A stretch of DNA of 64,000 nucleotides from contig NZ_CP136520.1 of NCBI RefSeq assembly GCF_032813545.1, forward strand, positions 428,001 through 492,000. Reading direction: 5' to 3'. The DNA comes from Nodosilinea sp. E11. GTDB taxonomy: Bacteria > Cyanobacteriota > Cyanobacteriia > Phormidesmidales > Phormidesmidaceae. This document shows positions 7,340 to 62,375 of the stretch, in pieces. The notes under the pieces are model-generated. The model worked only from the letters and a program-made list of their open reading frames with translations. It made no database searches and had not been told where the DNA came from. Within the stretch, counting starts at the first letter, position 1; the number at the start of each line of letters is the position of its first letter. A program made the position numbers and the translations under genes.

Positions 7340-7949
7340 CAATGTATGCCTTGTGAAATGATGATGAGTGAAGCGGGATGAAGCACTCGCTATTCAGCTG
7401 AGTTCTTTATTTATCAATGATTTCAGCCTAGCTAACTTTGCTGGCTACTGGTGTGAACTATTCTTTCAGCGACGCTATTTTTTCGCCGTTGTAATGTTGC
7501 GATACAAAGGCTGAGAGCGTTGCAGAATAGGGCTCTAGGGGCAGTGTAGGGAGAGTTAGGTGAATCAGCGCGAGAAAAATCGTAACGTGCTGTTATAAAC
7601 GCCGGTTGAGTCGCCTCTGTTCCCTGGGGCGGAGCCGCATTGGTGAGTCTCTCAGCAATGCCCACTAAGCTAAGGGACTTTTGAAAAATGGTTTCTTTAA
7701 GGGTGGGCAGTGCCCATCATACAGCGGCTACAGTCACTGGATTGAGGCTGGTATCTTCTTTCCTGGAAACCGCCTAAGGCTGGGAATGTTGGCCGTGGTA
7801 TAGCTGTAGCCAGTCTGGTTAAGACATTTATCTCTAGAACGTTCAAACGTTCAAACGTTCTGCAGGTTTTGGATGTTCTAACCTAGGTGACTATGGCCAT
7901 ACAAAGACGATGGCTATCTTTGACTACCATTCACCCACCCTCGCTGTTC
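7340..7949. other. Gene-free region carrying two dispersed repeats
   Basis: No gene is supported here. The interval contains a family C repeat (about 7671-7729, core GGGTGGGCAGTGCCCATC) and the first family A hairpin element (7799-7901). The remainder shows no recognisable signal. Confidence 0.6.
7799..7901. repeat. Family A hairpin element, copy 1
   Basis: A 103-bp element starting TATAGCTGTAGCC and ending CTATGGCCATA, with a central run of GTTCAAAC units. The two ends are imperfect inverted repeats of about 30 bp. Same family as the elements at 9108, 19251, 36868, 47012 and 62272. Confidence 0.85.
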
Positions 7950-8330
7950 TCACGGAAATCGACAGACTACCCGACCCAAAATATTGGTCTGGGCAACCAG
8001 GCCAAAGTCACGGCTGTCGGTGCTGGCTGCTGCGTTGAGCCCCTTTAAGAAACAGCCGTCAGCATCCACATACACCACCCATTTGATCAGCCATAGCTCT
8101 GGTTGGCGGGGATGGCGGGCCACCACCAAGTCTCCCGGTTGGGGTACTTGTTGACGATAGGCGGTGGGATCGATCAAAACTTCGCTGCCCGCCTCTAGCA
8201 AAGGCAGCATGGACTCGCCAACTACGCGCAACCGCCGCCGCTGACGCAGTAGCCACAGCACTACATCGGTGACCTGACTGCGGCGCAACTGCGACGGCGG
8301 AGTAACGGCAAAAGCATGATTCACTAGCAA
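7950..8330 (-). CDS. sodX: Nickel-type superoxide dismutase maturation protease (S26-like)
   Basis: This 126-residue protein has the signal-peptidase (S24/S26) fold in compact form. The catalytic Ser lies in VGESMLPLL (residue ~40) and the candidate general-base Lys in LWLIKWV (residue ~83), with PGDLVVARHP between them. It lacks the N-terminal membrane anchor of leader peptidases, as expected for the enzyme that removes the Ni-SOD propeptide. It sits directly downstream of sodN on the same strand, which supports the assignment strongly. No ATG opens the frame: TTG at 8330 or GTG at 8324 must be used. An 18-bp stem-loop lies between it and sodN and may set its expression below that of sodN. 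Confidence 0.88.
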   Translation of the reverse strand: MLVNHAFAVTPPSQLRRSQVTDVVLWLLRQRRRLRVVGESMLPLLEAGSEVLIDPTAYRQQVPQPGDLVVARHPRQPELWLIKWVVYVDADGCFLKGLNAAASTDSRDFGLVAQTNILGRVVCRFP

Positions 8331-8369
8331 CGAACCGGAACGTTAAGCCACAACGTTGAGGTACAAAAC

Positions 8370-8417
8370 GGAGAAGGGATAGAGCCACCTAAGCTTGGAT
8401 GGCTCTATCCCTTCTCC
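8370..8417 (-). promoter_or_regulatory. Perfect 18-bp stem-loop between sodN and sodX
   Basis: Arms 8370-8387 and 8400-8417 are exact complements of 18 bp around a 12-base loop, which itself contains AAGCTT. On the minus strand, the coding sense, the hairpin is followed by GTTTTG rather than a long T-run. It lies 15 bases after the sodN stop and 40 bases before the sodX start. Likely roles are partial termination or stabilisation of the sodN message. Confidence 0.85.
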
Positions 8418-8432: not shown

Positions 8433-8912
8433 CTAGCTAGCGGTGTACCAAGAGACATCGCGGTTCTTGGTAGCCCAAAACATTGTGTGGACCTTCTGCA
8501 CCGCTTCCATCAGTTCGGTCGCGTGCTGTACGCTGACCTCTACTTTGCAGGCCGAGCAGAGCTTGGCGGCTTTCCAGAAGGTGTCGTGCAGGTCGGGGAA
8601 CTGCTCTAGGTGTACAGGCTTAAAGTAGTCGGTCCAGAGAACCAGCAGTTCGTCTTTGGCGATTTGGGCCTGCTCTTCTTTAATGGCAGTAAAGCGGGCA
8701 AAGGTGTTGTGGTAAGCCACAGAAGCCGCCTTGTCGCCGCTGGTGGGCTGCTCTAGATCGACTAGTTTTTTGGTCATTGACAGCACCGCTTCGGCGGCTA
8801 CCCGAGCCGAAGACGGGTCGTAAACGCCGCAGGGGCCATCGCAGTGGGCGTGTACCTCAGCAGCGGGGAACCATGCCTGTAGCTTGGCAATTGCTTGATT
8901 GAGCATAATCAT
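8433..8912 (-). CDS. sodN: Superoxide dismutase, nickel type
   Basis: This 159-residue precursor of Ni-SOD disproportionates superoxide to oxygen and hydrogen peroxide. The diagnostic nickel hook HCDGPCGVYDP starts at residue 23. After removal of a 22-residue propeptide ending VHA, His1, Cys2 and Cys6 would bind nickel. Position 4 is Gly where many family members have Leu. The remaining four-helix-bundle sequence (about 137 mature residues) and its KxVHTMFWATKN C-terminal segment fit the family. Methionine codons at 8912 and 8906 are both possible starts. The propeptide has no Tat or Sec features, so the enzyme is probably cytoplasmic. sodX follows after 102 bp on the same strand. Confidence 0.96.
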   Translation of the reverse strand: MIMLNQAIAKLQAWFPAAEVHAHCDGPCGVYDPSSARVAAEAVLSMTKKLVDLEQPTSGDKAASVAYHNTFARFTAIKEEQAQIAKDELLVLWTDYFKPVHLEQFPDLHDTFWKAAKLCSACKVEVSVQHATELMEAVQKVHTMFWATKNRDVSWYTAS

Positions 8913-9107
8913 CCTGGTAGTGAATGGGTAAAAGCGTTGAAACCGAAACTTTCCGCGATTTCTATGGCCTCTGGCCTCACTTGCCCCCTCACCCGCTCTG
9001 GATTAAGCATCCCTATGCCAGGCAGGGGGATTGGTCGGGCCACGTTTCACATTGTTAACGCTATTGAGCCCTTCCGCAACCTTTGCCCTGGCTTTGGTCG
9101 GCAGATT

Positions 9108-9206
9108 TATCGCTGTAGCCAGTCCGGTTAAGACATTTCTCCTAAGAACGTTTGAACATTCGAACATTCGGTTTCTGGATGTCCTAACCCGGTGACTATG
9201 GCTATA
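9108..9206. repeat. Family A hairpin element, copy 2
   Basis: A 99-bp element running from TATCGCTGTAGCC to ATGGCTATA, in the gap between sodN and the nuclease gene. The core AACGTTTGAACATTCGAACATTC carries two substitutions (CGTT to CATT) relative to other copies. Confidence 0.82.
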
Positions 9207-19209: not shown

Positions 19210-19758
19210 AAGATATTCCCAAAAAATAGTTTGATTTAATGTATGAAAAGTATAGCCATAGTCACTTGGGTTAGGACATCCAGAAACCCTAGAAACGTTC
19301 GAATGTTCAAACGTTCTTGGAGAAAATATCTTAACCGGCCTGGCTACAGCTACAAGGTGAAATCAACAGCAAAAAACCAACCTGGCTGCAGGCTGACATC
19401 TACCCCATATACCTCGTAGGGGTATTGCAGTGCAATGCCCCTACGAGGTATATGTTTCGAATCGGGGGGGGTTGGGTTTGGTTTGGTACAACTGGCGAAG
19501 AAAGAGCTAGGATAACTCTGGCACAAAAATACCCAGATTTTTGCATCATTCCCAGAGTGCAGGGCCTACGCCCCTAAATGGAGGTATCTGCTTCTTTAAA
19601 AATCCCCTAAGTCCGCCGATGGCTATACTTGGCGAAATATATTGATATAATAAAGAGACTAAGAAGTAAGCGCTTTTTAAGCTGAAATCAAACTTTTAAG
19701 GCAGGTGCTGCTAGCCGCATTTTTTTTGGATGATCAACCATCCTGGGAAGCTGACCCA
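19210..19758. other. Gap with family A and B repeats
   Basis: A 549-bp interval with a reverse-oriented family A element (19251-19352) and a family B derivative (about 19401-19488). The latter's centre is a near-perfect stem ATATACCTCGTAGGGG...CCCCTACGAGGTATAT at 19407-19453. No coding sequence is supported; a GTG-opened extension of the PAS gene from 19705 is possible but not preferred. Confidence 0.6.
19251..19352. repeat. Family A hairpin element, copy 3 (inverse)
   Basis: Runs TATAGCCATAGTCACTTGGG ... GGCTACAGCTA in opposite orientation to copies 1, 2, 4 and 6; core GAAACGTTCGAATGTTCAA. It lies 41 bp after the CheB-CheR stop. Confidence 0.85.
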
Positions 19759-27554: not shown

Positions 27555-27607
27555 GTGGGATAGGCCTCTTGCCTGTCTAGACTAGACAGGCAAGAGGCCT
27601 ATCCCAC
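27555..27607. terminator. 53-bp palindrome between convergent genes
   Basis: Arms 27555-27580 and 27582-27607 are exact 26-bp complements separated by one base (A at 27581). It lies between the convergent ends of glyQ (27436) and the aminotransferase gene (27642). It may be a bidirectional terminator, though no T-run follows on either strand, or a dispersed palindromic repeat with cruciform potential. Confidence 0.8.
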
Positions 27608-36867: not shown

Positions 36868-36972
36868 TATAGCTGTAGCCGGTCTGGTGAAGACATTTTC
36901 CCTAAAAACGTTTGAACGTTCGAACGTTTCTAAGGTATCTGGAGGTCCTAAACCCAAGTGACTACGGCTATA
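36868..36972. repeat. Family A hairpin element, copy 4
   Basis: A 105-bp element running from TATAGCTGTAGCC to ACGGCTATA with the most symmetrical core of all copies, AACGTTTGAACGTTCGAACG. It follows directly after the terminator of the MoaD-like gene. Confidence 0.87.
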
Positions 36973-47011: not shown

Positions 47012-47115
47012 TATAACCATAGTCACTTGGGTTAGGACATCCAGATACCTTAGAAACGTTCGAATGTTCAAACGTTTTTAGGGAAAATGTCTTAACCAGA
47101 CTGGCTACAGCTATA
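47012..47115. repeat. Family A hairpin element, copy 5 (inverse)
   Basis: 104 bp from TATAACCATAG to CTACAGCTATA; core GAAACGTTCGAATGTTCAAA. It directly follows the hybrid kinase stop (11 bp). Confidence 0.85.
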
Positions 47116-47199
47116 CCCCTGGTTCAGCCAGTCGCACAGCGGTGCACCCCTACAGATTGGCCTTTTGGGTATCGGGGGTATGGAATTCGCATTCGGTAT
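47116..47199. repeat. Family B repeat, copy 5 (degraded)
   Basis: Shares GATTGGCCTTTTGGG and ends GAATTCGCATTCGGTAT with the reverse-oriented copy at 11961-12043. It abuts the family A element. Confidence 0.65.
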
Positions 47200-55862: not shown

Positions 55863-55902
55863 AAAAAAAAGCCTTGAGATCCCTCCAGGTATCTCAAGGC
55901 TT
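55863..55902 (-). terminator. Strong minus-strand terminator upstream of ddl
   Basis: A 12-bp perfect stem (55869-55880 / 55891-55902, AAGCCTTGAGAT) with a ten-base loop and an eight-base T-run on the minus strand. It lies 82-121 bases upstream of the ddl start and there is no minus-strand gene before it, so it is either a leader attenuator or ends a small RNA. Confidence 0.88.
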
Positions 55903-56078
55903 AACAATCAGGGTGCATCTACCTTTCCTTAATACGTTGAGGAAGCTAACCATCCGGACAGTTATTTATTTTTTGGGTCGCTAGGTTTGCTCCGGGAAGA
56001 ATTAAATGGTCCAGGGCTGCGGTCGATCGGTCATCACAGTGCATAATGCCATTGATACAAGGTGTGGCAGAGTGAGCG

Positions 56079-62271: not shown

Positions 62272-62375
62272 TATAGCTGTGGCCAGCCTGGTTAAGACAT
62301 CTCCCTTAAGAACGTTTGAACGTTCAAACGTTTTTTGGGCTTCTGGATGTCCTAACCCAGGTGATCATGGCTATA
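62272..62375. repeat. Family A hairpin element, copy 6
   Basis: 104 bp from TATAGCTGTGGCC to ATGGCTATA; core AACGTTTGAACGTTCAAACG. It follows directly after the DUF3598 stop. Confidence 0.86.

Follow-up and report, generated by a model that had tools for sequence, protein, structure and literature searches.

A terminator-like stem-loop between the genes for nickel superoxide dismutase and its maturation protease in Nodosilinea sp. E11

Why would a long, perfectly paired stem-loop stand between the gene for a structural enzyme and that for its maturation protease? The question arises at the sodN-sodX locus of the cyanobacterium Nodosilinea sp. E11 (genome size 6.1 Mb), which we analyzed in a window of 64,000 nucleotides (contig NZ_CP136520.1, 428,001 to 492,000; coordinates below are positions in this window). 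Here, sodN, encoding a Ni-superoxide dismutase of 159 amino acids (8433-8912, minus strand), matched TIGR02753 (211.6 bits; cut-off 90) and PF09055 (166.1 bits), and sodX, encoding an S26-like Ni-SOD maturation protease (7950-8330, minus strand), matched TIGR02754 (89.6 bits; cut-off 63.25). Lying on the same strand and belonging to these curated families, they are codirectional genes of one functional unit. The original prediction held that an 18-bp perfect stem, too long to be expected by chance, lies 15 bases past the sodN stop and 40 bases before a sodX without an ATG start, and that it partly terminates or protects the sodN mRNA, keeping the enzyme abundant and its protease scarce.

The geometry was as predicted. 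The arms, at 8370-8387 and 8400-8417, are complementary without a mismatch over 18 bp and lie between the two genes. From the stop codon of sodN (8433-8435) to the stem there are 15 nt, and the stem ends 39 or 45 nt from the TTG or GTG start of sodX. On the minus strand, the whole stem-loop (8370-8417) forms 20 pairs, one of them G-U and 11 of them G-C, around an 8-nt loop, with an energy of about -38.4 kcal/mol. The tail 3′ of the stem on this strand reads GTTTTGTACC, and its U-tract, GUUUUGUACC (8360-8369, minus strand), has five U in the first 8 nt past the stem, where the tract (GTTTTGTA, 5/8 U) is interrupted by G (GUUUUGU). This U-tract is present on the sodN strand only, the opposite strand showing TCCAGCTA. 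Both features by which Rho-independent terminators are recognized, a GC-rich compact stem-loop and at least 4 U in the 8 nt past the stem, were therefore found together. The folding energy of the 111-nt region was -52.9 kcal/mol, whereas shuffles averaged -29.7 (z -7.3) and none of 200 did as well. The absence of an ATG start from sodX was also correct for this genome, in which TTG (8330) and GTG (8324) are the candidates, an in-frame TAA standing just 5′ of TTG-CTA-GTG (read by eye from the sequence). Alignment of relatives makes the GTG at 8324 the more likely start; in these alignments, read by eye, sodX likewise seems to begin with GTG in several close relatives, and with ATG in three others (L012-L014).

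We then asked how unusual such a stem is within the genome, using a 464-kb sample composed of the window and 20 stretches of 20 kb, in which perfect stems with loops of 3-14 nt were sought. Seven perfect stems of at least 18 bp were found, the sodN stem included, and 22 of at least 14 bp, compared with none of either size in three whole-sample shuffles, which agrees with the prediction that 18-bp complementarity is improbable by chance. The 22 stems lay between convergent genes (14), between codirectional genes (7), or in a called ORF (1), and never between divergent genes, as judged against background genes called with a simple purpose-made ORF caller; this is the pattern expected of terminators. 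Strong perfect stems in the Nodosilinea genome are thus mostly at gene ends, and the sodN stem is among the minority situated between codirectional genes. A hairpin of -38 kcal/mol or stronger was present at 12/352 gene ends of the sample, the sodN end being one of them. The longest perfect palindrome of the 464 kb (loop 3-14) is also in the window, a 25-bp stem with a 3-nt loop between convergent genes (27555-27607), and another perfect stem, at 17372-17407 of L184, belongs to a dispersed repeat.

At 0-2 mismatches, the sodN stem itself occurred at a single genomic site, between sodN and sodX, by which a dispersed repeat (REP or MITE) was ruled out; at 3 mismatches, two genomic sites appeared versus five for a reversed-pattern control, that is, the control level. 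Nor did the hairpin match a known RNA element, an Rfam scan of the whole window at gathering scores having returned only tRNA and nitrogen stress-induced RNA 1 (NsiR1; 55864-55924, minus strand; 54.7 bits, gathering score 39), both elsewhere. The window does contain a dispersed repeat that we label MITE-like; it is approximately 105 bp long, its ends are imperfectly inverted (TATAGCTGTAGCCAG...CTATGGCTATA), and a palindrome resembling GAACGTTYRAACGTTC lies at its center. Its six window copies are at 7790-7905(+), 9108-9206(+), 19250-19352(-), 36868-36972(+), 47017-47117(-), and 62272-62375(+), and sodN-sodX lies between two of them that share an orientation. There were 14 further copies in 400 kb of the same genome and at least 51 matches genome-wide (40 of 108 candidates scored), with 44 in G009, 26 in G007, and no match in G002-G005 and G008.

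To place the hairpin in a comparative setting, we examined 153 distinct sodN loci. The gene was found in 134 genomes, of which 89 were examined, most of the remainder being picocyanobacteria; one locus set, the best 80 of 584 confirmed stretches, leans towards close relatives. A sodX match lay on the sodN strand in 156/170 loci (duplicates counted) and on the opposite strand in none, and was absent from 14/170 within the sequence stretch examined per locus; relative to the sodN stop, the matches began between -69 and +1288 nt, and 150 of them within 300 nt. To be scored as a U-tract hairpin, a hairpin had to be compact, reach -14 kcal/mol or better, carry a qualifying U-tract, and lie within 100 nt of the sodN stop; one locus at a contig end (L111) was left out of the count. 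Among members of the same family with sodX homology 61-300 nt downstream, such a hairpin was present in 33/46 distinct spacers versus 68/460 shuffles. In the Nodosilinea genome, it was present at 10/58 codirectional gene ends with gaps of 61-150 nt, the sodN end among the 10 (Fisher p 2.5e-8 against the family spacers, a statistic that ignores kinship). Outside the family, the same distance class gave 18/46 versus 17/460 shuffles, with Chloroflexi and Acidobacteria represented and with examples from Caldilineaceae, Ardenticatenaceae, and Chloroflexaceae. Two family members of this class, L046 (without a hairpin) and L050 (with a terminator), were at first counted with the other loci, and moving them gives 34/48 for the family and 17/44 for the others; L047, a family member with a hairpin in the class of 60 nt or closer, was likewise counted with the others.

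The remaining distance classes were smaller or harder to interpret. Other loci with sodX at most 60 nt away, many of them from Prochlorococcus, had hairpins in 18/44 cases versus 19/440 shuffles, and were not counted as support because many of these hairpins overlap the sodX coding sequence by position. In the family, the small classes gave 1/2 (at most 60 nt), 1/1 (more than 300 nt), and 1/1 (no sodX found), and among the other loci 1/3 (more than 300 nt) and 1/10 (no sodX found). If any hairpin of -30 kcal/mol or better is accepted alongside the U-tract hairpins, 37/46 family spacers are included, a figure that has no matching shuffle control; hairpins of -30 or better, counted by themselves, occurred in 17/46 family spacers versus 29/460 shuffles. 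The original prediction had named absence of a hairpin from all close relatives as evidence against itself, and a terminator-like hairpin instead proved common in them. Three picocyanobacterial loci (L091, L116, and L176, two of them from Synechococcus records) had a GCAGCAG...CTGCTGC-type hairpin followed by six T, approximately 29-73 nt past the sodN stop and at or overlapping the start of sodX homology.

Folding of the entire spacer gave a similar picture. For spacers of 45-300 nt, the mean folding z was -2.82 (median -3.05; n=47) in the family and -3.07 (median -3.06; n=35) at the other loci, compared with -1.04 (median -0.59; n=122) for codirectional and -2.52 (median -1.79; n=43) for convergent spacers of the Nodosilinea genome. 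The family sodN-sodX spacers therefore fold like the convergent, and unlike the codirectional, spacers of this genome, and the z of -6.7 for the window's own spacer was equalled by just 7/165 background spacers. Within the same genus, a z of -2 was reached in only 13/22.

Absences were also frequent. No U-tract hairpin was found within 100 nt of the sodN stop in 13/46 family loci and 28/46 other loci of the 61-300-nt class, loci of Calothrix, Rivularia, Crocosphaera, and Okeania being among those without one. Since the gene pair occurs in some lineages with no such hairpin in its spacer, the element is not a required part of the system. In one congener (L016), sodX homology begins 41 nt past sodN and there is no qualifying hairpin; five siblings (L004, L005, L006, L009, and L014) lack a qualifying U-tract, and four of them (L004, L006, L009, and L014) have long imperfect purine-rich hairpins instead. 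In some siblings, a dispersed purine-rich repeat of the genome supplies the spacer hairpin. Degenerate repeats of this type (GGTGAGGAAGATGAGG-like) are located 3′ of sodN in L002-L009 and L012-L014 and form long imperfect hairpins in some places in the sibling genomes. The repeat had at least 32 matches in G017 (query included; 40 of 84 candidates scored) and one in the window's genome. Twenty copies sampled from one sibling lay in codirectional gaps (14), called ORFs (5), and a convergent gap (1), and several of the sampled copies were a single arm without a strong fold.

The hairpins of close relatives differ markedly in sequence. Comparing the window with 16 close relatives, DNA identity was 83-90% for sodN and 74-80% for sodX, with very high alignment z, while the spacer was scarcely alignable (z -0.8 to 4.1), its identity of 66-81% being uninformative because it is computed over gap-chosen columns. 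An alignment of the 17 sequences contained no conserved block within the sodN-sodX spacer. A fixed slice 5′ of sodN, by comparison, aligned with z of 14.8 to 28.9 in 15/16 relatives; in the remaining one (L010; z 0.4), the same block is present further upstream, beyond an insertion. What is preserved between the window and its relatives is the position and structure of the hairpin, not its sequence. When the 48 family spacers, 34 of which have a U-tract hairpin, were clustered by similarity, a cut-off of E 0.0001 gave 30 clusters and one of E 0.01 gave 24, of which 22 and 17, respectively, held a U-tract hairpin; the 44 other spacers, 17 with a U-tract hairpin, fell into 35 or 34 clusters. The window's spacer was a singleton at E 0.0001. 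Seven family spacers in one cluster had a common TCCCGC...GCGGGA-type stem, so that common ancestry or a common terminator accounts for some of the conservation. The other clusters with more than one member consisted mostly of close relatives; hence, the hairpins are not all independent.

The block 5′ of sodN (approximately 9005-9085, minus strand; span judged by eye) was present in 17/17 aligned sequences, most of which displayed an (A/T)ATCCCC...GGGAT dyad, and is likely the promoter or operator driving both sodN and sodX. Its 21-base core was found with at most 3 mismatches in 8/18 genomes, in seven of which it lies just upstream of sodN; extra sites were found in G007 and in G040 (one each), the latter genome having no sodN match.

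Taken together, placement, a U-tract on the sodN strand, and recurrence in relatives point to the terminator half of the predicted partial terminator or protector; protection of the mRNA is weighed below. On balance, we think that the hairpin probably acts as an intrinsic (Rho-independent) terminator, its stem strong and its U-tract weak, inside a sodN-sodX operon with read-through to sodX. RNA polymerase starting from the sodN promoter would mostly halt past the hairpin, so that sodN mRNA would be plentiful, monocistronic, and structured at its 3′ end, and a minority of polymerases would pass the interrupted U-tract and transcribe sodX, the translation of which would be lowered further by its non-ATG start, resulting in a low, catalytic level of protease. 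What the DNA itself shows is the sequence, predicted structure, orientation, and placement of the hairpin, and its recurrence at this position in relatives; from these we infer that transcription ends there, that it does so only in part, that polymerases reading through supply the sodX mRNA, that the block 5′ of sodN acts as a promoter, and that dosage is the reason. A search of the genome for Rho gave two weak matches, of 29.8 and 21.6 bits, and none above the cut-off of 509, and cyanobacteria are stated to lack Rho in a Synechococcus elongatus 7942 paper (PMC13289151). Against a terminator stand the interrupted U-tract, the relatives that have no U-tract hairpin, and the mapped ends in S. 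elongatus 7942, which suggest intrinsic termination for only 22% of transcription units (PMC13289151).

The most serious competitor, although we consider it unlikely, is a hairpin that chiefly protects or defines the sodN mRNA 3′ end after processing, as a barrier to 3′-exonuclease, in which case the genes would be cotranscribed and sodN RNA would outlive sodX RNA. A 20-pair stem stronger than most gene-end hairpins would suit such a role, as would the long hairpins without a qualifying U-tract in some siblings, but a processing barrier needs no U-tract, and one follows directly on the stem here and in most of the family loci counted above. Less probable still is that the hairpin fully terminates a sodN transcript that is always monocistronic, with sodX transcribed from its own promoter. 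This would fit the resemblance of the spacers to convergent gene ends in folding z, as well as one locus (L022, in G014) where sodN has a U-tract hairpin 3′ of it and no sodX was found in the stretch examined. Short of proof, we lean towards read-through over a second promoter because the sodX start is a mere 39-45 nt from the stem, because no sigma-70-like site was seen on the minus strand of the spacer and no conserved block lies within it, the conserved block being 5′ of sodN, and because sodX so consistently shares the strand of sodN and is never opposite to it.

Two further explanations seem much weaker. It is very improbable that the palindrome is neutral, for example a functionless product of chance or remnant of a repeat: this would accord with siblings whose spacer hairpin derives from the dispersed purine-rich repeat and with the other perfect stems of the genome, at least one of which is within a dispersed repeat, but the sodN stem is single-copy, no stem of such size arose in shuffles, and hairpins of differing construction recur at this position more often than in shuffles or at gene ends of the same genome. 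Least credible of all, with almost no weight in our assessment, is that the sodN 3′ end gives rise to a small RNA regulating another SOD mRNA. The precedent would be Streptomyces s-SodF, derived from sodF and acting on sodN (PMC3919588), and two Fe/Mn-SOD loci are also present in the Nodosilinea genome; the stem, however, has no other genomic match at up to 3 mismatches save the two chance-level sites. Predicted long complementarity between the 3′ region of sodN and the two Fe/Mn-SOD loci did not exceed that of shuffles, 21 and 38 of 100 of which were as good, and the idea was set aside.

The leaky terminator that we favor would have counterparts in other bacteria. Internal terminators that set gene ratios are already known, having been shown in Clostridia: in ABC-importer operons of Ruminiclostridium cellulolyticum, premature termination at internal terminators sets the transcript ratio, and a long stem with modest U content distinguishes these from canonical terminators, according to PMC9045158. 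The Nodosilinea element is alike in lying between genes of presumably abundant and low product in one operon and in its long stem and modest U content; it differs in its genes and phylum and in that the clostridial cases were measured by northern blot and reporters (PMC9045158), while sodN-sodX is known from sequence alone. With the canonical Rho-independent terminators of S. elongatus 7942, as defined in PMC13289151, it shares a hairpin and at least 4 U in 8 nt; unlike them, it stands between codirectional genes expected to be coexpressed rather than at a mapped end, and its U-tract is interrupted. Streptomyces coelicolor has the same enzyme and protease pair, and a strong stem-loop terminator is involved there too, but, as we read PMC3919588, it ends the sodF mRNA, whose 3′ UTR RNA pairs with the 5′ end of sodN mRNA, and the sodN-sodX intergenic region contains that 5′ end, so that the gene arrangement differs. 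In the literature searched, most of it outside subscription journals, we found no report of an internal terminator between sodN and sodX.

A broader proposal, which we offer tentatively and hold to be doubtful, is that the ratio of Ni-SOD to protease may be under selection, and that cyanobacteria, Chloroflexi, and Acidobacteria may have repeatedly re-made a leaky terminator at this one position from different sequence, in some siblings from the dispersed purine-rich repeat, with read-through perhaps serving as a further control point, for instance by nickel. If termination with read-through is indeed what occurs at this locus, a structural metalloenzyme and its dedicated protease would share a promoter yet differ greatly in amount, and the spacer would retain its function, ending transcription, even as its sequence changes from one close species to the next. 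The sodN-sodX spacers would then also provide natural cyanobacterial intrinsic terminators, probably of graded strength, in a group where termination is poorly understood.
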